A stretch of 64,000 bases of DNA from Comamonas sp. 26 (GTDB lineage: Bacteria; Pseudomonadota; Gammaproteobacteria; Burkholderiales; Burkholderiaceae_C), in contig NZ_PEFL01000003.1 in NCBI RefSeq assembly GCF_002754475.1, positions 248,001 to 312,000 of the forward strand, in the 5' to 3' direction. A program made the translations under genes and the position numbers. Within the stretch, counting starts at the first letter, position 1. The number at the start of each line of letters is the position of its first letter. The notes under the pieces are model-generated. The model saw nothing but the letters and a program-made list of their open reading frames with translations. It ran no database searches and was not told the origin of the DNA. Of the stretch, positions 44,129-60,937 are shown in pieces.

Positions 44129-46711
<2,583 letters not shown>

Positions 46712-47017
46712 AGTTGTGTAGGTGGATGCAATAAGCGGGATTTTTGATGGCAAAAGTCGGGATTTTTATGACTAATTAAATCTCGATTGAAGCAAGCTGC
46801 CTATGCCCGCCATTGCTAAACAAGATTAGGTTCTACGTCTCATAAAAACAGCTGCCTTCGCAGCTGTTTTTACGTCATCTGGGTGCTGTTCGAACTCTCA
46901 TCTTTGGTTCACAACCAGAGTCCGAGTCCTCGCTACATCAATGTCTTCGCATTGAAAAGCAAAACAAACACAAAATATGCCTGCACAGCTGGCGAGATAC
47001 CTTCCAAGGAGACAGCT
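46712..47017 (+). promoter_or_regulatory. Leader region of the RT operon after gyrB
   Basis: This 306-bp gap contains the gyrB terminator, two direct repeats CGGGATTTTT (46736-46745 and 46758-46767) and the promoter region for the downstream reverse transcriptase. Some RT-based defence systems carry a structured non-coding RNA beside the RT; this is the place to look, but I cannot show one. An anticodon-loop-like stem at about 46901-46919 lacks the rest of a tRNA. Confidence 0.45.
46844..46871 (+). terminator. gyrB terminator
   Basis: AAAAACAGCTGC (46844-46855), CTTC loop and GCAGCTGTTTTT (46860-46871) form a perfect 12-bp stem, 133 bp after the gyrB stop. Confidence 0.88.
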
Positions 47018-48685
47018 TTGTTCAAACCGACATTTCATCACTTCCGACGTGCTGCTTGCGAAATCGCAAAACATGGCGATAACGACACGTTGCCGTTCGA
47101 CATTGACGTTAAATTTTGTGGTGAGAAGGCTGACGCTCTTGCCTCCATCGCCTACGGCTTTTATTCAAAACTTCGAGACAGTCAAGATATTCAAGAGAAC
47201 CGTGAGCGCATTACAGAGCTACACGTTCACAGTGAACGGCTGCTCGCCCCTTCTGGTCCTGCCGGATTCCGGGTAGTAACGAAGATTCATCTGTTCTGGA
47301 ACATATACCTTAATGGATTGGCAATCGCCATTGCAGAGGTACTTGAACCACATCGCTCCCCGAATGCCCACTCATACCGCTTCCTACCATCAGGTAATGA
47401 ACAGCTTTTCGATGAAAATAGGTCATGGCGTGCCTTCAAGGAAGCGACCATAAGTGATGTAACCAATGCTGGTGATGAGGCGGTTGTTGTTCAAACAGAC
47501 ATCTCGAGCTTTTACGAACACATTTCTCATCACTACATCGAAAACTTCATTCAAGCCCTAGGCGGCGATGCAGGGCCTGTTTCGAGGCAAGTCAACACCA
47601 TTCTTAGCAAGCTCTTCGCAGGACGCTCCTTTGGACTCCCGGTCGGTGGCCAAGGAGCACGCATACTTGCGGAATTATTTCTGGCTCAAGTAGACGCGGC
47701 GCTTACGACTCATGGAGTGCAGTGGCACCGCTATGTTGACGACTATGTGCTGATTGCAAAGGACACGACAGAAGCATACCGAGCGCTTGGCCTACTTGCG
47801 CAAGTCCTAATGGACTATGGCTTGAGCTTGAATAAGACCAAAACTGTTTTCCTCTCGGCAAAACACTATAAAGACTACGTGGCTTCACAACTCGGCGGCG
47901 AAGACGTAGAGGCAGCAAAGCTACGCAGCATCGACCTGAAATTCGACCCATACTCGGATAGTCCTCATGAGGACTACGAGTCGCTCGTGGAAACCGTCGA
48001 AACACTTGAAGTACGACAGCTTTTGAATCGTGAGCTGGAGAAGGCACTACCAGACTCTTTCTTGGTAACCCAGATTGGTCGGACTATGCGGCTTCATCAG
48101 CCAGTCGCAGCACTCGATATAGCTGCAACGCTGTTAAAGCAGCAAAACCTGCATGCGTTCCGCTCATCGTTTTCCACCATCATGAGAGGAATTGCCAACC
48201 TCCGAAACGATGCACGGTTTTCCAGCATTCACTCGCGCCTCGACTCATTGCTTGATGCCATCCCAACTCACTCTGCGCATCTATTGAAGGCAGACACCAA
48301 TCTGCTCCACTACCTGCGTTGCTTGCGCTTTCAAAGTACACCGACACGCACACAATTCGTGCGCCATCTCTTCGATACGACGCCATTGGATACAGTACGT
48401 CGTAGTTGCATTGATTGCTGGCGTGGTTGGCGCGACAGAGCGGCGTTTAACCATCTGCGCAACCGTTGGCAACAAATGACTCCCGAGTGCCAGCGACTCT
48501 ACTGGCTCGCATCCTATGAATTTGACGATGAGGGAAACAAGGCACGAATCCAAGCGAAACGTGCGGTACAGCAATACTGGGCTCTCGGGGTAGAGCAGCC
48601 CAGCGGCGAAGAAAAGAGCAAGGCAGAACACTTATTTGCGTCGGTGTTCATAAAGTGGGCTGAAGAGGTAAGTAATGCAGTTTGA
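47018..48685 (+). CDS. Reverse transcriptase, Abi/unknown-group (defence) type
   Basis: A protein of 555 residues from TTG at 47018, which has AAGGAGA 5 nt before it; a GTG at 46883 would add 45 doubtful residues. RT motifs are seen: A with D161 in VVVQTDISSFYEHISH, B GLPVGGQGARILAELFLAQV (206-225), C YVDD (239-242), and D K273 in SLNKTKT. The variant B motif without QG.P.SP resembles Abi and unknown-group RTs, not group II introns or retrons. The last 270 residues look all-helical, as in Abi-type RTs. It overlaps the nuclease gene by 11 bp. Defence is inferred; the subgroup is not assigned. Confidence 0.85.
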   Translation: MFKPTFHHFRRAACEIAKHGDNDTLPFDIDVKFCGEKADALASIAYGFYSKLRDSQDIQENRERITELHVHSERLLAPSGPAGFRVVTKIHLFWNIYLNGLAIAIAEVLEPHRSPNAHSYRFLPSGNEQLFDENRSWRAFKEATISDVTNAGDEAVVVQTDISSFYEHISHHYIENFIQALGGDAGPVSRQVNTILSKLFAGRSFGLPVGGQGARILAELFLAQVDAALTTHGVQWHRYVDDYVLIAKDTTEAYRALGLLAQVLMDYGLSLNKTKTVFLSAKHYKDYVASQLGGEDVEAAKLRSIDLKFDPYSDSPHEDYESLVETVETLEVRQLLNRELEKALPDSFLVTQIGRTMRLHQPVAALDIAATLLKQQNLHAFRSSFSTIMRGIANLRNDARFSSIHSRLDSLLDAIPTHSAHLLKADTNLLHYLRCLRFQSTPTRTQFVRHLFDTTPLDTVRRSCIDCWRGWRDRAAFNHLRNRWQQMTPECQRLYWLASYEFDDEGNKARIQAKRAVQQYWALGVEQPSGEEKSKAEHLFASVFIKWAEEVSNAV

Positions 48686-49400
48686 CCCACGCACAGTCGC
48701 GCACGAAATTCCAGGCATTTTCGATGAGATATTTCCTCAGCTAACGCCAAGCATCGTCACGCATCTCAACAACTCCGCGTGCTTCATTCCAGTCCAACCA
48801 CTTCAACAGGAGCTGCTACGTCAGTCAGAGTTGCAGCGGGCTATGCTTTTCGAACTTGGCTACACCGCAGGTGAACGATTGATACGAGGGGAGACTTCTA
48901 TTGATTGGCCCAGCTGCTTTGAGGACACACTCCGCCGGCAGCGTGCTTATTTTGACGCAAAGCTACCTGACCAACTGACCGCCTGGGACCAAGCCTTAGC
49001 CGAAACGGTTGGAAAAAATCTTGCGAACTCGATGGCGGAATTAAGTCGTGCAAGTGGGCACCCTGTTCTCATTCGGCCTCAAATTCCAGGTCTTGAATGG
49101 ATTGCCAGTGGTCACGGAGATTTCGCTCTCGGAAGTACTTTGGTTGAGGTAAAGTGCACCGCCAAACGCTTCTCCTCTGCCGACTATCGTCAAGTGGCTA
49201 TCTATTGGCTGCTTAGTTACGCAACATCTCTCGAGGGGCGTGGTTCTGAGTGGCAAGACTTCGTGCTACTTAACCCACGGAGAGGTGAGAAAGTTTCGAT
49301 GAAGTTCGATACTTTCTTGTCAATCATCAGTAGCGGTCGCACGAAAGTAGACATCCTCCAACTCTTTCAAGCCCTTATCGGCTCCCGTCTCACACGCTGA
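48675..49400 (+). CDS. PD-(D/E)XK-like nuclease paired with the RT
   Basis: 241 residues. The core GHGDFALGSTLVEVKCTAKR gives D149, E158 and K160, followed by a conserved-looking Q173 in DYRQVAIYWLLSYA. This is the arrangement of PD-(D/E)XK restriction-type nucleases. The N-terminal 120 residues are helical and unrecognised. Its ATG lies inside the end of the RT gene, so the two are co-translated. I infer that the proteins act together, the nuclease being the likely effector. The assignment rests on motif spacing alone. Confidence 0.72.
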   Translation: MQFDPRTVAHEIPGIFDEIFPQLTPSIVTHLNNSACFIPVQPLQQELLRQSELQRAMLFELGYTAGERLIRGETSIDWPSCFEDTLRRQRAYFDAKLPDQLTAWDQALAETVGKNLANSMAELSRASGHPVLIRPQIPGLEWIASGHGDFALGSTLVEVKCTAKRFSSADYRQVAIYWLLSYATSLEGRGSEWQDFVLLNPRRGEKVSMKFDTFLSIISSGRTKVDILQLFQALIGSRLTR

Positions 49401-49991
49401 AGCACCAGAGCAGCGACAAGCAAATACGGGCATCTTTCTTGCGAAAAAACCTAGTCAATGCAGGGTTGTGCCATCCGCGATGGTGAAAACGTTGGAATTG
49501 GCCGGCTCAGGCCCTTCATACGCGCTAAGTATTAGCTGGACTCAGTTGAACGATGAGAGGTTGAGGTTTTTAATCAACTGGAAAGCAAGATTTCGCTGAG
49601 GCTGCGTAGCGCATCCTGCGGATGTACTGCAGGGGCTGGAGCACCATGCAAGGGAGTTGTTGCCACATCGTTGACTGCTTGAGGACGACGCAGCAAGCTG
49701 AGTGCCTCGGCATTCAAGCGGGGATGGACAGACGCTTTCGGCAGCATTACCACTTTGCACTTCAGACTCTACCCCTACGCCCCCCGCCTACAGCGGAAGG
49801 TGGAGAACCTCAAGGTCGAGCCGTGTTCCGCCAACCTCCAGAGCACGAGTCCGCACCGGAATGGCCGTACTGTGTCGAAGAGACCGAAGAATGGTGCCAG
49901 TCGGTCACGATGCGGAAGTTGCGCCGAATATAAAGTCACTAAGTAAACATGAGAAACGAAAATTATCTCTATAGGTGATGGCCGTTTGGGC
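49401..49991. other. Gap between convergent operons, no recognised gene
   Basis: 591 bp between the nuclease and the SMC-like gene stops. A 39-codon frame (49480-49599) and a frame to 49933 exist, but neither resembles a known family and both carry neighbouring stops. It may be decayed mobile or gene-remnant DNA. No terminator or RNA was recognised. Confidence 0.4.
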
Positions 49992-52900
49992 TCAATTGCC
50001 TGTGACTGCCTCCGCAGGCCGAGGCTCACGGGCCAGGGAGATAGTCTTGAAGTCATCGCCAAGGAAACTGAATTTCTTTGAGAAGAGCGACGCAACCTTC
50101 GTGTCCGCGGTAGCAAAGAAGATTTGGCGACCAGAGTTCACAGCAAGGTCCCGTAGGTAGTCCAAGAAGGACAACGCGTTCAGGTCATCGATGTGGGCTA
50201 TGGGGTCGTCAATAAGTAATATGGGAGGCGCATTTGTCGCAGTGCGATTCCTAGCTAGGAAGATTGATAGCGCGAACGCAGCGCGCTGTCCGGTACTCAC
50301 CTGAGCCAGGGTTCGTGTTTCCCGTGTCTCGACTGACCTCAGAAGCACATCGGAGCTACCTACGTATTCGTATTCCTTAGGTGAATGGATGCGAGAAAAG
50401 ACTTCGTTGATTTGGCTGCCAATTGCCTCCAAGACCTCTTGGGTAGCACTTTCGAGCGAAGCGTTGGAAACCAGGTCACCCAATAGATTCTGGGCAGCGC
50501 CCAAAGCATCCGCTTCACCACGAGCAGTGCTGAGTTTTAGCTGCTGAGCCTCAATTGCAGGAGGAAGAACCCGCAGCTCTTCCGAGTTGCTCACCTCACT
50601 GTGCCAGGCATTAACAGCCTCACTGCAGGCTGATGCTACAGCGGCAACACGAGCTTGAAGTTCAGCGAGCGAGGCATCATCAGACACATGCAGATAAGAA
50701 CGTAACCTCTCAACGTTGTCCGCAGCCGGGATGAACTCGTCTTTTAGTGTGATGAGCGACGCGAAGGAGTTGATGGGCTGAACACGTGTTGACCAACTAT
50801 CTGAATCGATGGCTCGGCAGATTGCACGGATTTCCTCAGCTACAGCGTCAATCTGCCGCCGAAGGGCCTCAAGCTCATTACGCTTGCCTTCCGCCGCCTC
50901 ATTCTGGGAACGCAGCACTTCCGCTGCGCCATTGGTCGCATGACCGCTTGAGGTCGACTCAAAGAAATGACTGACTCGGCTCCAGAGACGGTCGTGCTCA
51001 TCGCTGGTAAGCCCAGCCTCTCTCAGAGCCTTCCCCTCCTGGGTGAGTCGCTGGAGTTCAAGTCGAGCTTTGTCAGCTTCAAGCCGCAGCCCAGCAAGCT
51101 CATCCAGTATCTCTTTAGGAGTTTCGCCCTTCAGGCCCACAAGGCTCGCAGTGCTCTGGCAATACTCCAAGCCAGTCGCAATCTTCTTGGCCTCGTTTGC
51201 ATCATGTTCAGCTTGGCTCGACACGTGAACGAGAGCATTGAGCTCTGCAGAGGAATCGTTGCCAGAATTCAGTTCTTCGATGAGGTGAACCAAAGCGCCA
51301 TCCGGATGGACTGTTTGACAAACGGGGCAAGCATTCGGGTGTTGAGACTGCTGGAGCACCTTGAAGGCAGCGCTCTTAAGGCTTTCGAATGCGGCGGCAC
51401 GCGCTGACGCTGCTTTCCCATGCAGGTCCAGAGCCTTCTTCGCACCTCCAAACCTCTCCTCGGCATCGCGTACAGCCTGGTTGGCCGATTGAAGTGCCAC
51501 CCCGATAGGAAGCTCCGCATAGCGAACCGGAATTTCTGGGGCCTCGCCTGAAAGTTGGCTCTTGAGCCGCTCCGCAAGTGCGTCCACTACACCACGTGCG
51601 TCAAAGTACCGAGTCCGCACATCTAGGAATCCCGAAGACTCGTAGACGAGCCTACGGCTAAGCAGCTCAGCATTTCTTTCATGCGCCTCGATATGTTCTA
51701 CAAGGTCATTTTCCAGCTTATTCAACTCTGAGAGACGCTCTTGGTGGGGCCGAGCGGCTTCAAGCGCGGTGTTAAGTTCGGTGAAGCGATACTCGATGTC
51801 ACTTAACGTCCGAGCAGCATCGCCTAAGGAGGAGAGGGCTTGGATATGTCCCAACGCCGCCAACAGTTGCGGTTCTTCGTCTAGCTGAGAAACACCGGCG
51901 TTAGGGGAACTCTTCCATCCGAGAGAGACGAGCACGGCGCGATACGACTCCGCAAGGGTCATTGCGATTGAAGGCCTGCTCTGCAACTCTCGCAAACGCT
52001 TCTCAAGCTGAATCAAGTCCTCTTGTAGCTTATCGGCGTTGGCCTCTGCTTTGTCGAACGCCTTTTCCACGTCCCCGTGGATTTTCTGGAGGTAGTCAAA
52101 CGTCGTCGCAGCGGTCGCGCCTACGAGCAGTCGACTAAGCTCGGTGGCGACATCCGCTGGCTGGAGCTGGGCCGAAAGGCGGAAAGCGGCGTCTGTGTCC
52201 AGGAAGTTGTACTGCGAGAAACTATCGACGATGGCGTCGACGGCGAACTCTTTGCGGTTGTACCAAGCTAAGCAACGAGCCTTGAGACGCGGGCCGTCTG
52301 ACGTGGATTGGAGGTCAATGCCATCTCCACCCTCGTTAGGCGCAAGCTTGCCCTTGAGGCGAACTACTCCAGTGTTCTTACTTCTTAAATTGTTCCCGCA
52401 ATAAAACCGTTCGATAGCCTCAAGCAATGATGTTTTGCCAGTGCCGTTTGCGCCCGTGACGAGTGTGACCTTGCCAAAATCGTAGGTCTTACCGTCATGC
52501 ACAGGACGAAAACTGCTGATGGTCAAACTGAGCAGTTTGGACTTCGCAAGCGGTATGTCTGCGCGATTAAGGTCGCTAATGCGTTGACGACTACTTGCCG
52601 GCGTTCCTGCCTCGCGTTTGGCAATCTTCGCCACCACCCCCGTTCGAGGGGTGACGCAATCGAGCAGAAGTTCTAGCTGACCTGAGGCAAGCCTGCGTCT
52701 CCAATCTGCGAGCACATCAGGCGACACGCTGCCATCCGTCGCCTCGAAGAGTTCGGCAGCGCCCAGCAGCGATTTGAGGTCTTCCGCTGATACGACACGC
52801 TTTCGCGCGTAGTCCCTGTCTTCCTCAATCGCTGCTTTCGCCGCAGCGAACTGAGGATTTGATGTGGAGTTTGGACCAGCAACGAGATAAAGGTATTTGT

Positions 52901-53129
52901 TCCAGCGCAGGTCACCTGGCGAATCGAAAAAGTCGTCGCCGAGAATTCGCTCCTGAAAGTCGCGTAGATGCTGCGAGCGTTGCACCACCTCATCAGCAAA
53001 GTCTACGTAGGCTACGGCGTAAGCATGTGGCCCAAACCTCTTTTCTCCACGCACAACGCTCTCATCCACAGCTTTTAGTCCGACGAGGAGGTGTGAGAGC
53101 GAGTCACGAGCCGTTTGCATTTCTAGCAT
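49992..53129 (-). CDS. Rad50/SMC-like ABC ATPase with CPxC hook
   Basis: 1045 residues. The Walker A motif GANGTGKT is at 226-233 after a distinct N-terminal region of about 200 residues. Two coiled-coil stretches flank CPVC near residue 600, a Rad50-like zinc hook. The ABC signature is STGQRAAFALSIFLA near 943, and Walker B is ILLIDDPIAHIDD near 975. Such ATPases clamp DNA and often drive nuclease or toxic partners in defence systems. It starts 4 bp after the stop of the 392-residue gene, so the two form an operon. Similarity to Lamassu- or ABC-three-component-type systems is possible but unproven. Confidence 0.88.
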   Translation of the reverse strand: MLEMQTARDSLSHLLVGLKAVDESVVRGEKRFGPHAYAVAYVDFADEVVQRSQHLRDFQERILGDDFFDSPGDLRWNKYLYLVAGPNSTSNPQFAAAKAAIEEDRDYARKRVVSAEDLKSLLGAAELFEATDGSVSPDVLADWRRRLASGQLELLLDCVTPRTGVVAKIAKREAGTPASSRQRISDLNRADIPLAKSKLLSLTISSFRPVHDGKTYDFGKVTLVTGANGTGKTSLLEAIERFYCGNNLRSKNTGVVRLKGKLAPNEGGDGIDLQSTSDGPRLKARCLAWYNRKEFAVDAIVDSFSQYNFLDTDAAFRLSAQLQPADVATELSRLLVGATAATTFDYLQKIHGDVEKAFDKAEANADKLQEDLIQLEKRLRELQSRPSIAMTLAESYRAVLVSLGWKSSPNAGVSQLDEEPQLLAALGHIQALSSLGDAARTLSDIEYRFTELNTALEAARPHQERLSELNKLENDLVEHIEAHERNAELLSRRLVYESSGFLDVRTRYFDARGVVDALAERLKSQLSGEAPEIPVRYAELPIGVALQSANQAVRDAEERFGGAKKALDLHGKAASARAAAFESLKSAAFKVLQQSQHPNACPVCQTVHPDGALVHLIEELNSGNDSSAELNALVHVSSQAEHDANEAKKIATGLEYCQSTASLVGLKGETPKEILDELAGLRLEADKARLELQRLTQEGKALREAGLTSDEHDRLWSRVSHFFESTSSGHATNGAAEVLRSQNEAAEGKRNELEALRRQIDAVAEEIRAICRAIDSDSWSTRVQPINSFASLITLKDEFIPAADNVERLRSYLHVSDDASLAELQARVAAVASACSEAVNAWHSEVSNSEELRVLPPAIEAQQLKLSTARGEADALGAAQNLLGDLVSNASLESATQEVLEAIGSQINEVFSRIHSPKEYEYVGSSDVLLRSVETRETRTLAQVSTGQRAAFALSIFLARNRTATNAPPILLIDDPIAHIDDLNALSFLDYLRDLAVNSGRQIFFATADTKVASLFSKKFSFLGDDFKTISLAREPRPAEAVTGN

Positions 53130-53133
53130 CTCA

Positions 53134-54312
53134 CTATCCCCCTGTGATGGACGTCATGCTGGACCCATCGAAAGCAATGTCTGTTTGCGCCTTGATATCG
53201 GCGAACTTTATGTTTCCGGCGGCTGTCCGGAAACATACTGCCACCCGATTTTTGTGAGCTTTGTTTTCCTTACGGAGCAACTCAAATGCTGCGTCGCCAA
53301 TGTTCTTCACAACGTCGGGCGCCGGACTCTCACCTAGATAGGCGACCAGCGCTGGACGAACTCCTGCCTTGGTCACGTTGGTGTTAGGCGAGTCTGGACT
53401 CCAGGATATAGAAGCACCTCCACCTCCTAAGTCCTTGATAGGTAAAGGTAGCTTTTCATTCCGAAGGATGTTCCCAAGAACGGCGACCTTCCCAAGTCGT
53501 CTCTGCCGATTTTCCTTAGCGACTGCGTTTCGGTCTAGTTGCAGGGTCGCTCGCCCAACAACTTCAGACTCCTGGATTTGACAGACGTCCAACTTGTCTA
53601 CGCGATGCCATTGCTCGCTTATCTTGTGAGGACCACATGAAAGAGAGATAGCTCGTTCTACATACAGGCGGTTTTGGACGTCCTGGAGGTTCTCGAACCC
53701 AGCTGCAAAATCCGGGTCCGCGTTGATGATGGAGGACCACCCTGTTTCGGGGCAATCATTAGTTTCAACCCAGGCTGCGGTGGTTTCATCCCAGATGAGG
53801 CGAGCATCGACTATCGGCCCCACCAAGACGTCATGCACAGCAGGGCCGTCCTGCACCACCTTCGGTACGGTTAGCGCGAAAACAGCCTCGTCATAGTGGA
53901 AGTGCAATACGTGGCGCTTCTTATCATGCCGCGTGTAGTAGAGACCCTTTGCCTCATTGCTGATGACCTCGGCATCCTTGACCGAGCACCGACCGTCTGG
54001 CAAGTACCAAGCCGACCCGCTCTCGTTATCCCACTTTGCGGGCGTCTTACTGTCCGCTTCATACTGCTCCATGTCTTGAGCCCAGTTCAGGCAAACAATG
54101 TCGCAGTTAGTCAAATTTGCGCTGCGGCTGAAAACATCTGTTCGATACCGGCGATAGTCGTCGTGCTTAGGCTTCGGATTCAACTGCACGTGGATGAGAA
54201 TCGTACGGTCAGACAGTTTTTTCGTGGTCGCTGCGTCCACCCTCCACATCTCTAATGAGAACTGGCACCGTTCCTCCCGAAGAAACTTTTGCAACTTCTC
54301 AAATAGTATCAA
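53134..54312 (-). CDS. Unrecognised 392-residue protein, partner of the SMC-like ATPase
   Basis: 392 residues from a TTG at 54312 with no ribosome site; an ATG start at M22 (MWRVDAATTKKLSDR) is the alternative. I do not recognise the family. No clear nuclease, protease or membrane motif is visible; the sequence is mixed alpha/beta with segments such as TILIHVQLNPKPKHDDYRRY and VVGRATLQLDRNAVAKENRQ. It lies 4 bp upstream of the SMC-like gene. An hsdM remnant ends 16 bp before it, so a deletion may have trimmed its 5' end or placed it under the hsdM promoter. Confidence 0.75.
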   Translation of the reverse strand: MILFEKLQKFLREERCQFSLEMWRVDAATTKKLSDRTILIHVQLNPKPKHDDYRRYRTDVFSRSANLTNCDIVCLNWAQDMEQYEADSKTPAKWDNESGSAWYLPDGRCSVKDAEVISNEAKGLYYTRHDKKRHVLHFHYDEAVFALTVPKVVQDGPAVHDVLVGPIVDARLIWDETTAAWVETNDCPETGWSSIINADPDFAAGFENLQDVQNRLYVERAISLSCGPHKISEQWHRVDKLDVCQIQESEVVGRATLQLDRNAVAKENRQRRLGKVAVLGNILRNEKLPLPIKDLGGGGASISWSPDSPNTNVTKAGVRPALVAYLGESPAPDVVKNIGDAAFELLRKENKAHKNRVAVCFRTAAGNIKFADIKAQTDIAFDGSSMTSITGG

Positions 54313-55260: not shown

Positions 55261-56022
55261 ATGTTGGCTACAGGCACGTATGGGCGGCGCGGCCGTCTTG
55301 GACAACTCGAGACCGGCATCCGCCTGGTTTCACCCACGTATGGGCGCTCACGCATACGCACGTACAGTGCCAGCAGCGGCGAAATCATCGTCGACAGCCA
55401 AGCCGAACGCTTGGTATCCCAGATGCTGGCCATCGACCCCAGTGTCAGCAGCTATCGTCCCCAGCCTTTCACGATTGACCTGAACGCTCAAAGACTGCTG
55501 ACGACTCGAGAGCAAGTCAAAGAAGTTCTGGACCGCTATAGCCGGCACCTGGGACCTCGCCTCTATACCCCCGACTTCTGCATCCACTGGCAAGGCGCCA
55601 GGAAAACCGCCGTAGAAGTCAAAACCGAGTCCTACCCTGGCGACGCACGCGACCAGGAGCGTTGGACCCGTGCAGCAGCGATTCTGGCCGCCTATGGCTA
55701 CGAATTTGCCAACGTGGTGGTGCCGAACCGTATGTTGGGTCCGCTCAAACAGAATGTGCAGCTATTGCAACAGGCCAAGCGTTTGCAATGCAGCTTACTG
55801 AGCCCTGAGCTTGCCAAGCAACTCGACCGCCTGGAGGGTCGCGCACTTACCTTAGGTGAGGTCTGCGCCCATCTCGCCCTTCCGCTGCCGCTGGCACCGA
55901 CACTGCTGCTCTCTGGTGCGGTTTCCCTGGACCTGTTGCATCACCCGATGCACGCCGAGACACCCGTCGAGCTGGCCTATGGCGAACTTGAGCATCTGCG
56001 CCTTGTGGAAAGGATGTGGTGA
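55261..56022 (+). CDS. tnsA: Tn7-like transposon endonuclease TnsA
   Basis: 253 residues. The catalytic set of TnsA-type nucleases is visible: E49 (SQAERLVSQML), D105 (YTPDFCIHW) and E119/K121 (AVEVKTES). TnsA cuts the 5' strands at the element ends so that transposition can be cut-and-paste. The C-terminal half would contact TnsC. GGAAAGG lies 7 nt before the ATG, and the stop overlaps the tnsB ATG (TGATG). Confidence 0.85.
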   Translation: MLATGTYGRRGRLGQLETGIRLVSPTYGRSRIRTYSASSGEIIVDSQAERLVSQMLAIDPSVSSYRPQPFTIDLNAQRLLTTREQVKEVLDRYSRHLGPRLYTPDFCIHWQGARKTAVEVKTESYPGDARDQERWTRAAAILAAYGYEFANVVVPNRMLGPLKQNVQLLQQAKRLQCSLLSPELAKQLDRLEGRALTLGEVCAHLALPLPLAPTLLLSGAVSLDLLHHPMHAETPVELAYGELEHLRLVERMW

Positions 56023-57965
56023 TGCTTCAAGGACTCAAAAAGGGTGACGCACTCACCGACATCACATCCAGCATTGAGTACTTCGTTGTGGACTCTCAAC
56101 TGGTCGATGGCTGCATTGCCCTGCTGGACCGCAGCAGCCGCGAGCCCAAGTTTTGGCCGCTGCATGAGGTTTACGAAGGTATTTCCCAGCAGCGCATCAA
56201 ACTGCACCGAGCAGACACGGCCTTCGTGCCGGTACACGCTCATGACAGTCCAGCATTTCTACAGCGCCTGAACTGGGCCACGAAATGCCTGCGCCAAGTG
56301 CTCGACACCACCGACGAGCTGGGGATGAGTTTTGACAGAGCTTTTCATCTGGTGCGTGACGAACATCGAGGCCAGCCGTTTCCCACCCGCTCCTCGATGT
56401 ACCGCTTCAAAGCCCGCCATCTGGCCGGTCTTCCCGTGCTCAAGGGCGACAAAAACAAGGGCTGCAGAAAAGCGCGTTACCAACTCGAGGTTTACGAGCT
56501 CATCACGCAACACGCCCCCTTGTACTGCAGCCCCCATTCACGCTGGCAAATGCCCGCGTTTGTGCGATTTATCAACCAGCAAGCCAGAGACAAGGGCTAC
56601 ATCGAAGCCACCCAAAGCGTTAGCTTGAGACATGTGCGTGACACCTTGAAGCAGCAGGGCTACATCGACACAGGCTCCTACCGGATGGAGCGCAAGAACG
56701 TCGCTGCAGCGCGCTCTATGGGTGCCCGCCGTATTCACACGACCTACCCGTTTGAACGCGTGGAGATGGATGGCGTGCATCTGCCATTCCTGGTGCAAAC
56801 AGACCATGGCGTGAGCTCCAACATCTGGTGTGTGCATGCTATCGAAGTCAAAACCGGCATGGTTCTGGGTTGGAAACTGGTGGTGGGAAGCCCGTCAGAA
56901 AACGATGGCCTCGACTGCATTCAGTCGATGCTGTTTTCCAAGAAGACGGCATTTCGACTCTTGGGACTGAACTACAGCTTCGACATCTATGGCACGCCGG
57001 GCCTGATTGTTTTTGACAACGGCGCCGAAGGCAAAGGTGAGCGCATGGAAAAGCTCTTGCTGCTGGGTATCGATACCGAACATTGCCCGGCACGCCATCC
57101 GCACAAAAAGCCCTATATCGAACGTCTCAACCGCAGTTTGAAAACCGCCCTTGAGACGCTTCCCGGCTGCACCCGAATGGATGGTATCGATGGCAAACGC
57201 ACCATGGCTGCCGAGCGCGAAACCCCCTTGAGCTTGCTCGAAATCGAGCAGTTCATGGTGCGCTGGTATTACGAACAATGGGGCAACCAAACACTGGAGC
57301 GGCACCAGTACACCGACCCCGAGTGCGGAGTCACCCCCATGGAGCGCTGGAAGTATTTCACCGAGACATCAGGCCATGTCATGCCCATACCAGTGACTCA
57401 GGACGAATGGCGCAAAGTGACCTTGGTGAGAAGCCAGCGCAAGCTGTCTTCCAAAACAGGTATTACCTATGAAGGCCTCAGCTACAAGGGCTCCAATCTG
57501 CCGCATCTGCTGCAACGCTTTCACGAAGCTCCTGTCTCGGTTTATGCAGACCCGAGGGACTATCGCTTTATCTATGTCGATGACGGCAGCCAGTTGGTCG
57601 AGCTGGCAGAAGAGTTCGTGCATTCTGACTCTCCAGCTTTCACGCTGGAGCAATGCAAAGTGCAGCGCAAGGCCCTGCGTGAGCAGCTCAAACCTGGCGA
57701 AGCGAGCCAGTTTGAACGCGACATTTGGAGCCAATCTCTGCAGACAACGACCAGAAAGACTCCCGAAAAAACTGCGCAAAGAAATCGCACTACGGCCAAA
57801 AAACACAAGGAGTCGCAAGCTATCCAGCGCGCGATTGCGAAGCCGCTAAAAGCCTCGAGCCTGCTTGGTGAATCGGTCAACAAGGTTCATGACGCAACGA
57901 TGACTTTTGACAACCTGCCGACTTTCGATGTCGTGGACCGCCGTAACGAGGGTGGCAAAGCATGA
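56022..57965 (+). CDS. tnsB: Tn7-like transposase TnsB
   Basis: 647 residues. An rve-type DDE integrase core has D250 (VEMDGVHLPF), D332 (IVFDNGAEG) and E367 (KKPYIERLNRS). The D332-E367 spacing is 35, as in active DDE enzymes. N-terminal helix-turn-helix regions precede it, and a mu-type C-terminal barrel and Lys-rich tail follow. It joins the 3' ends of the element to target DNA. The module of TnsA/B/C/TniQ type is reminiscent of Tn6022-like elements. The start shares bases with the tnsA stop and the end with the tnsC start. Confidence 0.9.
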   Translation: MLQGLKKGDALTDITSSIEYFVVDSQLVDGCIALLDRSSREPKFWPLHEVYEGISQQRIKLHRADTAFVPVHAHDSPAFLQRLNWATKCLRQVLDTTDELGMSFDRAFHLVRDEHRGQPFPTRSSMYRFKARHLAGLPVLKGDKNKGCRKARYQLEVYELITQHAPLYCSPHSRWQMPAFVRFINQQARDKGYIEATQSVSLRHVRDTLKQQGYIDTGSYRMERKNVAAARSMGARRIHTTYPFERVEMDGVHLPFLVQTDHGVSSNIWCVHAIEVKTGMVLGWKLVVGSPSENDGLDCIQSMLFSKKTAFRLLGLNYSFDIYGTPGLIVFDNGAEGKGERMEKLLLLGIDTEHCPARHPHKKPYIERLNRSLKTALETLPGCTRMDGIDGKRTMAAERETPLSLLEIEQFMVRWYYEQWGNQTLERHQYTDPECGVTPMERWKYFTETSGHVMPIPVTQDEWRKVTLVRSQRKLSSKTGITYEGLSYKGSNLPHLLQRFHEAPVSVYADPRDYRFIYVDDGSQLVELAEEFVHSDSPAFTLEQCKVQRKALREQLKPGEASQFERDIWSQSLQTTTRKTPEKTAQRNRTTAKKHKESQAIQRAIAKPLKASSLLGESVNKVHDATMTFDNLPTFDVVDRRNEGGKA

Positions 57966-58516
57966 ACAACGCCCAAGAACTTCGCCAAGCCATTGAACAC
58001 TGCGTGATTCAGCATCCTGAATTTCGCAAACACGCCGACAGCCTGCAACAGCGCATTGACGATGCCATTGCCGGCTATTCGCCGCGTATCGAGTGGCTGA
58101 TTGGACCGCCCCAAGTGGGCAAACATGTGCTGTGCAACATGCTGTCGCGCCAATACCCATCGCAACGCATCAACGGCAAACTACAAATCCCAGTGCTGGC
58201 GGCCAACCTCCCCTCCAGCATCACCCCGGAAATGCTGCCCACTATGTTGCTAAGCAAGCTGGGCCAACCTCTACCGCAAAAAACCAGCGAAAACGATGTG
58301 ATGTTCAAACGCCTGTGTGACTGGCTTCATCTGGCCGGAACCAAGGTGGTGATTTTTGAGAACGCCAGTTACCTGGTCAACCCTAGGGCTCGCATGCAAC
58401 CACTGGGTGCCGGTGACTGGTTCAAATCGCTGGTGCACATCACCGGCGTGACCGTGGTGCTGATGGGTCTTCCTCGTCTTGAGCAGCTTTTTACCTGTAA
58501 CCCAGAGCTTCGCTCA
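57962..58516 (+). pseudogene. tnsC: TnsC-like ATPase, 3' end lost
   Basis: About 184 residues have TnsC/TniB character: P-loop GPPQVGKH (48-55), a Walker-B-like VVIFENASYL (129-138) and a sensor region LMGLPRLEQLFTCNPELR. After NPELR the frame runs into the downstream gene in a foreign frame and stops at 58801. So the last third is missing. The P-loop has His where Ser/Thr is normal and Walker B has Glu-Asn for Asp-Glu. Both may be subfamily traits. TnsC normally links target selection to transposase. Confidence 0.75.
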
Positions 58517-59546
58517 TCCGCCGCTGAAGCCATTTTTAGACATCACACTGGATGTCTGTCAGCGGCATTTCAACGGACGCCTTGGTGCACAGGACCAGAC
58601 AAACGCCCCTGCGGAGCAAAACTTCAAACATTTGGCAGTGGCCGCCAAGCAGATGGGCGTCTCGCGCGCCCTGCTTATCAAGGCCATTGCTCAGGGGGAA
58701 TGCGCGCATCGAACTATGCGTTACGGCACAAAAGGCGAGACCTTCGAGGTTTCACTAGAAGAGATTTCCCGTATCCAGGTCGCCCGCCAAGACTGGATTG
58801 ACGAGGTCTCGGCATGCACTCTAACCGGCGTTACGCCAGCCATTCTTCAAAACATGGCAGCTGCAGGAATTCTGCAATCGGACCTCAAGTGGCGCGGAAA
58901 TATCTTCAGAGCCGGGGCGTTTTATCAGCCCTCGTTGGTACAGCTCCATAAGGCGCTGAAGGAGTTCAGCAATCCATTCAAAACGGATGAAGAAACGGTG
59001 ACATGGTCTGCACTGACCAGCCGCCGTATGGGCGATAAAGCGGCGATTGCATCCGCCATGATGGCCGCCTCCTTGGGTGAAATCCGGGCAGTCAAAGTCG
59101 GCAAAAAGCTTGGCGACTATGCGTTCTTGCTCTCCGATGTGCGGCGTTATTTCGGCACCCCACTGCTGGAATCGGGGATGTCCATTGCCCAGTTGTCCAA
59201 AGCGACCGGGTGGAAGAATGAATCCATCGCCCACTGGATAGACGAACAGTTGCTCGAGGCGGAACAAATTCAGCTGCGCGGCCAGCTTTGCCGAGTCATT
59301 ACGCCCGCGCAATTGCTGCGTTTTCGGCGCAGCTACATACCGCTGGCGGACTTGGCAAAGGTCATGGAGAGCAGGCCTTCGTCTCTCATCGACAAGCTCG
59401 CAGATGTCGATGTCGTTGGTGCCAAAAAACTTCCCAATGGAGCTCAGCGTGGTGCCCTTATACGCATGGCGGACCTTGGCAAGTGGGCCATGGTTGGACT
59501 GCAGGTTTCACGTGGCGGACTGTTCAAGCTGCAGGACTATTCATGA
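58510..59546 (+). pseudogene. tniQ: TniQ/TnsD-like target-selection protein, 5' end lost
   Basis: An open frame of about 345 codons after the junction resembles the C-terminal part of a TniQ/TnsD-like protein: repeated helix-turn-helix-like segments such as AAKQMGVSRALLIKAIAQGE, MSIAQLSKATGWKNESIAHW and YIPLADLAKVMESRPSSLID. The N-terminal TniQ domain is absent, and the first codons overlap the broken end of tnsC in another frame. The apparent start at 58479 is TTG inside tnsC. A deletion between tnsC and tniQ explains both truncations. Identification is by context and pattern, so moderate. Confidence 0.6.
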
Positions 59547-60050: not shown

Positions 60051-60401
60051 ATGCAAAGAGTGAATATTCAGGCAATCGAGCAGCAGGCCACCGTAACGCT
60101 CGCGGCATGGAGCGTCTTTGAAGTACAGCTCCCGCATGAAGCTGCGCCCACTTGGCATCTCTGTGGGTTCCGTTTAGAGACAAATCGCGGCAAGGTCAGC
60201 TCCGCGATTTCTGCGTTTGACCCATACACGGCGCGGTGCATTACACGCAGTGGCAATGTCTATGAGCTGTATGGCAACCCGGGCGCAAATGCCGATGCGC
60301 TAGCCACTCGTGGTGTGTGGCTTCGGATGAACCAGGTTCAGCATGACCTGGATGTCACTCCTGCGTTCTTGGCATACCTGCAGCAAGGCGGCCAGTCATG
60401 A
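60051..60401 (+). CDS. Hypothetical protein upstream of the HAD-like gene
   Basis: 116 residues. GGAG sits 7 nt before ATG at 60051; the longer frame from 59991 lacks a ribosome site. It starts MQRVNIQAIEQQATVTLAAW and contains LCGFRLETNRGKVSSAISAF and AFDPYTARCITRSGNVYELY. I do not recognise a domain. Its stop overlaps the next start by 4 bp, so it is probably co-expressed with the HAD-like gene. Confidence 0.6.
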   Translation: MQRVNIQAIEQQATVTLAAWSVFEVQLPHEAAPTWHLCGFRLETNRGKVSSAISAFDPYTARCITRSGNVYELYGNPGANADALATRGVWLRMNQVQHDLDVTPAFLAYLQQGGQS

Positions 60402-60937
60402 ATCAATCTCAACGTCCCGTGATTTTTCTCGATTTCGACGACGTCATCTGCTTAAACAGACCCTACGGCGGCTATGACGCCAAGCTTGCAATCCACGATG
60501 AATCCTCCGAGGTTTGGGCCCGCTTGTTTGACGCAAAGGCCAAACAGCACCTGGAGATGCTCCATGAAAAATTCACGCCCTGGTTCGTGATTTCCAGTAG
60601 TTGGTGGTGGCTTTTTGACAGGGAAGAGCTAGTCGAAGTCATGCAGCGCAGCGGGCTCAGCTTTGTCTCGGACAGCTTGCACTCCGCATGGGCAACACCC
60701 AAGCAATCACGCCAAGGAATGCGTGCGACAGAAGTGAAAAGTTGGCTTGCGCTCCACCCTGAGTTTTCCAACGCGTGGGTTGTCATCGACGACAAACTTT
60801 CAGGCACTGGCTTCAAGAATTGGAGCCGTGAAGCCTTGTCATACGTAGTTCTCTGCCAGCTGGAAGTTGGTCTTCAAACTTTGGAAGTTGCACAACTACA
60901 TGATGCTCTCGAGCGCAGGATGAACATCAAGAGTTAG
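60398..60937 (+). CDS. HAD-superfamily protein of the SAK (RNA repair-associated) type
   Basis: 179 residues. The N-terminal motif VIFLDFDDVICLNRPYGGYD carries the HAD nucleophile/acid pair (DxD), with SSSWWW as the second motif and VVIDDKLSG as the acidic motif IV. This pattern resembles the HAD domain found with RNA-repair proteins and as a stand-alone gene in mobile elements. It would be a phosphatase or phosphotransferase; substrate unknown. It is the last gene of the module before a run of fragments. Confidence 0.7.
   Translation: MNQSQRPVIFLDFDDVICLNRPYGGYDAKLAIHDESSEVWARLFDAKAKQHLEMLHEKFTPWFVISSSWWWLFDREELVEVMQRSGLSFVSDSLHSAWATPKQSRQGMRATEVKSWLALHPEFSNAWVVIDDKLSGTGFKNWSREALSYVVLCQLEVGLQTLEVAQLHDALERRMNIKS

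Follow-up and report, generated by a model that had tools for sequence, protein, structure and literature searches.

In the window analyzed here, a 64,000-nucleotide stretch of the Comamonas sp. 26 genome (contig NZ_PEFL01000003.1, positions 248,001 to 312,000 of the forward strand), a reverse transcriptase (RT) gene overlaps a gene for a PD-(D/E)XK nuclease, and the two almost certainly constitute an anti-phage system of the defense-associated reverse transcriptase type DRT8 (unknown group 7, UG7), in the nuclease-bearing lineage of that type. The pair is an intact, otherwise ordinary member of an already named system, and the pairing itself is not new. What we add is the placement of this RT among the untemplated enzymes of Class 1, an argument against an adjacent non-coding RNA (ncRNA), a tentative typing of the nuclease as RecB/MGME1-like, and the naming of one tyrosine for mutation, which together render the DRT8 mechanism testable. 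DRT8 belongs to the DRT types that have a name but no established mechanism: two texts from 2026, in their available parts, describe it as not established or unresolved (PMC13213688; PMC13314766), and our literature search, which left most subscription papers outside its reach, found no paper on it.

Identification of the DRT8 pair

The features on which the analysis rests are the following.

47018..48685, forward strand: Drt8 (UG7) RT, TTG start, 555 amino acids, RT core followed by a C-terminal helical domain
47006..47011, forward strand: Shine-Dalgarno site AAGGAG before the RT start, read from the sequence
47732..47743, forward strand: YVDD catalytic motif, RT residues 239-242, identical in all 45 aligned RTs
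47951..47953, forward strand: Tyr312 of the RT, candidate priming residue, conserved in 45 of 45 RTs
48675..49400, forward strand: RTasPDDEXK nuclease, 241 amino acids, overlapping the RT gene by 11 bp (48675-48685)
49119..49205, forward strand: nuclease core D149, E158-V-K160, Q173-V-A-I-Y177, invariant in 37 of 37 nucleases and unchanged in two divergent ones (loci L092 and L093)

The PADLOC Drt8 (UG7) model matches the RT at 3.6e-152 (506 bits; the runner-up, UG22, scores 108 bits), and the RTasPDDEXK model matches the nuclease at 3.1e-75 (250.8 bits); the Pfam domain RVT_1 is found in the RT at 5e-15. Because 1015 proteins match the RT and 480 match the nuclease at E ≤ 0.001 (for the RT, scoring was confined to the 7994 candidates with the most shared words; the best 120 matches were listed for each protein), the sequence comparison excludes a chance origin of the frames. 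An earlier note on this DNA, made from the letters alone, had proposed a candidate undescribed defense system; its view of an Abi/unknown-group type defense RT with a dedicated PD-(D/E)XK partner stands, but the system is not undescribed, given the two PADLOC matches and a published text that, in its available part, lists a PD-(D/E)XK domain as a DRT8 trait (PMC12596737). The RT thus belongs to a known group, UG7, with the same kind of partner and not a different one. Anti-phage activity of the type is reported in reviews, as far as their available text goes (PMC13213688; PMC13314766). A retron was also considered and rejected: the RT is best matched by Drt8, the only retron model among the matches listed reaches 35.8 bits, far below its cut-off of 235, and neither a sequence-conserved flank nor an Rfam match indicates an msr-msd beside the RT.

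Both frames are open over the coordinates listed, and the details read earlier from the sequence were borne out, namely, the RT motifs VVVQTDISSFYEHISH, LPVGGQGARILAEL and YVDD, the all-helical C-terminus, which is seen in the structure model, the 11-bp overlap, and the D149, E158xK160 and Q173 core of the nuclease. The motif A aspartate of the RT is D161. Mechanically, the RT frame opens at a GTG codon at 46883, upstream of the TTG at 47018. The latter is likely to be the true start, because the AAGGAG site lies before it, the Drt8 profile alignment begins no more than 2 residues from it, and close homologs start at the same position: among 15 rows (the window and 14 loci with at least 64% RT identity), 14 start with TTG and one, L030, with GTG, and in 7 of the 15 an in-frame stop lies 3-24 bases upstream of the start. 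The retention, in the window and its closest homologs, of the rare TTG codon behind a Shine-Dalgarno site hints at selection for low translation of the RT. Compared with close homologs, 9 residues are missing from the window RT near position 529, where model confidence is low.

Conservation of the RT-nuclease pair

We collected 43 related loci, 42 from genome contigs and one from viral contigs. The nuclease gene lies directly downstream of the RT gene in 39 of these, including all 37 with an intact RT frame, so that, as opposed to homologs never having the nuclease beside them, the pairing is obligate in this clade. Of the four loci without the nuclease, two (L016 and L023) reach the contig end, one (L042) lies close to the end of its contig and has an RT frame cut short, and one (L039) has a broken RT and no nuclease within the 5 kb examined. 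Some of the pairs are themselves disrupted: in L026 and L036, the RT and the nuclease are each split across two frames, and in L043, an in-frame stop interrupts the nuclease. Among plasmids, the nuclease is present in four records, the same four whose RT is at least 48% identical to that of the window, and the two genes are adjacent in all of them; in one of the four (H4), the RT match is limited to residues 249-555. Phage records gave no RT match at E ≤ 1e-5. The divergence of the RT and that of the nuclease are correlated at 0.93 across 37 pairs, a value reached in none of 2000 permutations. Of the 12 proteins of the window's island, none but the RT and the nuclease turns up again among the 43 loci.

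The nuclease contains the D...(D/E)xK...QxxxY core that is the hallmark of the RecB/Cas4/MGME1-type PD-(D/E)XK nucleases, and in structure comparison, its predicted fold appears to resemble those of AdnA, AddB and MGME1; a search of Pfam and NCBIfam with the nuclease gave no match. D149, E158, K160, Q173 and Y177 are each invariant in the 37 aligned nucleases.

RT fold and a candidate priming tyrosine

The full-length RT model matches DRT6, DRT4, AbiK and Abi-P2, the best Foldseek hits being Abi-P2 (1.1e-10) and DRT6 (1.6e-10), and in the model, the RT core is joined to a large C-terminal domain that is helical, as in AbiK and DRT4. Five tyrosines are invariant in all 45 aligned RTs, namely, Y120, Y166, Y239, Y312 and Y320. 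Of these, Y312 is our candidate for the priming residue, a role that we infer. It lies between the RT core and the helical domain, in a loop modeled with low confidence (predicted local distance difference test score, pLDDT, below 50 at residues 307-315); a second segment with pLDDT below 50, at 529-537, is not conserved. The priming tyrosine of AbiK is reported, in the available part of the source, to sit on a mobile loop. The motif around Y312, FDPYS, is kept exactly in L092 and L093, and a tyrosine at about this position was read by eye in 14 of 14 UG7 rows; in the divergent RTs, the equivalent of Y312 was located by eye in segments, automatic alignment having assigned it in just a subset of these.

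Search for a neighboring ncRNA

The 700 nt upstream and downstream of the intact-RT loci, window included, were compared with one another by blastn (E ≤ 0.001; 37 upstream and 36 downstream flanks). Upstream, shared DNA was detected in 7 of 10 pairs with RTs at least 90% identical, in 1 of 13 pairs at 80-90% (71 nt) and in 1 of 44 at 70-80% (44 nt), and in none of 66 pairs at 60-70%, 332 at 50-60% and 201 below 50%. Downstream, 5 of 6 pairs at 90% or more shared DNA, and below 90%, in the same classes of falling RT identity, the counts were 0/12, 0/35, 0/62, 0/326 (50-60%) and 0/189. In a first run, the flanks of the window matched no other locus on either side, and shared flanks were found among other loci; L010 and L039 then shared 217 nt, and they do not form a pair in the second run because the RT of L039 is broken.

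As a control, three DRT2 loci compared at nearly the same settings share 193 nt upstream at 50-52% RT identity (2 of 2 pairs positive, E of 1e-22 and 6e-20). These two pairs are not independent, since two of the three loci are 86% identical, and the control rests on three loci because viral contigs yielded none; its E-values are not strictly comparable with those of the test, as the searched sets differ in size. The RT of one control locus (L087) scores 381.7 bits, just below the Drt2 cut-off of 390. Another (L089) is annotated drt2, with an annotated start about 116 bases before the flank end that we used, so that the shared stretch is possibly annotated in part as coding there, but not in L087 and L090. 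No Rfam family matches positions 46500-50000 of the window. Thus, an adjacent ncRNA was sought by flank comparison and through Rfam and was not found, while the DRT2 control was positive, and the sequence comparison shows the window DRT8 to be without a sequence-conserved flanking RNA. Given the full-length fold matches and the lack of conserved flanking DNA, this DRT8 resembles the untemplated enzymes of Class 1 rather than an ncRNA system.

UG7 beyond the nuclease-bearing clade

Whole genomes sampled with the Drt8 model gave 4 hits in 369 (E ≤ 1e-40), 4 in 398 and 6 in 376 (both at E ≤ 1e-60), that is, 11 other UG7 loci once the window's own genome (first two samples) and a repeat, G538 (third), are set aside. 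In two of these loci, L092 and L093, the RTs are only 27-28% identical to the window RT, and a divergent homolog of the nuclease, with all five core residues in place, lies beside each (7e-12 and 2e-10). Beside the other 9 of the 11, the nuclease was not found in about 1.4 kb of downstream sequence (0.56 kb for L003). Our data divide UG7 into a lineage that bears this nuclease and RTs that lack it: in a tree of 50 rows, one branch (support 98/96) splits 40 nuclease-bearing RTs from 10 others. A single change of the nuclease label on the RT tree is suggestive only, because long branches meet at this split (L092 and L093 versus the rest) and because 38 of the 40 nuclease-bearing rows come from the window itself or from searches that started with its clade.

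Two of the other loci have arrangements of their own. At L004:1489-3630, a Drt8-type RT (3.8e-116) is followed, in the same frame directly past its stop codon, by a PD-Lambda-3_A frame (5e-51; possible starts from 3136 on), which encodes a nuclease non-homologous to RTasPDDEXK. This pairing rests on one locus, given its absence beside L091, a plasmid RT 56% identical to that of L004; viral contigs contained no relative of it. At L003:559-3045 (reverse strand), a Drt8-type RT is part of an 829-amino-acid frame with a long C-terminal extension that contains one hydrophobic, possibly membrane, stretch (residues 524-542).

Proposed mechanism and alternatives

The mechanism that we consider most likely, with a probability of roughly 0.45, is that of a Class 1-type, untemplated, protein-primed RT with the nuclease as a gated effector. 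The RT would need no RNA template for DNA synthesis and would use its own protein as the primer, with Tyr312 as the probable priming site, and the RecB/Cas4/MGME1-type nuclease from the overlapping gene would be the effector, bound and restrained by an RT oligomer together with its DNA product. A phage that disturbs this DNA would trigger release or activation of the nuclease and, as a result, abortive infection. An effector role is suggested by the exchangeable partners of UG7 RTs and by the precedent of DRT1; a PNP effector is listed with DRT8 in a review.

Alternatively, the nuclease might be a processing or control enzyme that constantly trims the single-stranded DNA (ssDNA) made by the RT, and infection, for example, through a phage ssDNA-binding protein that shields the ends, would let toxic ssDNA build up, a scheme reported for DRT4, in which host exonucleases take part. 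This possibility, to which we give less credence, is suggested by DRT4 and by the kinship of the nuclease with end-processing exonucleases: its QxxxY motif and, as far as the structure comparison suggests, its fold are those of the AdnA/AddB/MGME1/Cas4 group, many members of which act on ssDNA ends, and DRT6 and DRT4 are among the best full-length fold matches of the RT. In DRT4, according to the available parts of two texts, ORF55 shields the product from exonucleases (PMC13213688; PMC13314766). However, DRT4 works without a nuclease gene of its own, and both the non-homologous nuclease of L004 and the review-listed PNP effector fit exchangeable effectors better. A bolder version, which we think rather unlikely, is that the pair forms a self-contained module in which the untemplated RT grows protein-linked ssDNA and the dedicated RecB-type exonuclease removes it, polymerase and nuclease jointly acting as the infection sensor; phage proteins shielding DNA ends might upset the idle balance, or the cycle itself might drain deoxynucleoside triphosphates. 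If true, this form of regulation would be without precedent among DRTs in the literature examined.

Much less probable is a Class 2-type system, in which the RT would copy an ncRNA encoded beside it, as DRT2, DRT3, DRT9 and DRT10 are reported to do in the source text available. An RNA conserved in structure only, located inside the ORFs or encoded elsewhere would escape the flank comparison, but at 50-60% RT identity, the range in which the DRT2 control was positive, none of the 332 upstream and 326 downstream pairs shares a flank, and the absence of an Rfam match and the Class 1-like helical domain point the same way. Least probable of all is that the pair is a decayed remnant without function. 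The island contains mobile-element genes, the RT or nuclease is broken in 4 of the 43 relatives (L026, L036, L039 and L043), and the RT frame of L042 ends early; in the window, by contrast, both frames are intact, the catalytic residues are present, and the start site and the overlap are conserved.

Genomic setting

The locus directly follows gyrB, as had been noted from the sequence.

44144..46711, forward strand: gyrB (NCBIfam TIGR01059, 926 bits, cut-off 882); its stop codon marks the border of a strain-specific island

Six genomes of the same genus, out of 40 with a gyrB match, were compared with the window. Their homology with the window ends at the gyrB stop (46706-46713), and their next 19 kb encodes none of the 12 proteins that the window carries from position 47018 onward; the DRT8 pair lies within an island specific to this strain. 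In three of the genomes (L082, L083 and L086), a common backbone follows gyrB directly; in L081 and L085, other inserts of about 14 kb and about 10 kb, respectively, separate it from gyrB; and in L084, there is no shared backbone within 19 kb. By this comparison, the site right after gyrB (window position 46712) is an insertion hotspot in this genus. In Pseudomonas syringae, too, DRT8 is reported to be horizontally spread, with 14% located in prophages, according to the available part of a survey.

The island carries other genes of possible relevance to defense and mobility. An SMC/RecN-like ATPase (49992-53129; PADLOC LmuB, 6e-35) and an adjoining gene for a 392-amino-acid protein for which PADLOC, Pfam and NCBIfam gave no match (together 49992-54312, reverse strand) are possibly another defense pair, Lamassu-like or ABC-type. 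A Tn7-like tnsA-tnsB-tnsC set (55261-58801, forward strand) encodes a TnsA-like endonuclease (PF08722, 2e-8), a TnsB-like transposase (PADLOC TnsB, 4e-13; Mu-transpos_C below cut-off) and a TniB/TnsC-like ATPase (PF05621, 2e-9), and is followed by a gene for a helix-turn-helix-like protein. Elsewhere in the window, a HAD_SAK_2 domain protein is encoded at 60398-60937 (forward strand; PF18143, 1.7e-15).

Comparison with known systems

With DRT8/UG7 as defined by the PADLOC Drt8 and RTasPDDEXK models, the window pair shares the RT family, the nuclease family and their adjacency, and our tests found no difference. Set beside the RecB-like nucleases AdnA/AddB, MGME1, Dna2 and Cas4, its probable relatives, the window nuclease has no helicase part. 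Cas4, Dna2 and AddB carry a four-cysteine Fe-S cluster, of which the window nuclease shows no sign, since only two cysteines, C81 and C161, are conserved. AbiK and Abi-P2 have the same two-lobe architecture as the window RT, but we know of no nuclease partner for them. They prime, according to the available part of the source, from N-terminal tyrosines (Y44 and Y61), whereas the window candidate is at position 312. DRT4 (UG15) and DRT6 are 12-14% identical to the window RT in structural alignments and, in the available part of one text, are described as single-gene systems without a dedicated nuclease (PMC13213688), which the window RT does have. DRT1 likewise combines an RT with an enzymatic effector, and untemplated protein-primed synthesis has been reported for it; its effector, however, is a nitrilase domain within the RT protein itself (Class 3), whereas in the window, the candidate effector is a nuclease encoded by a separate gene.
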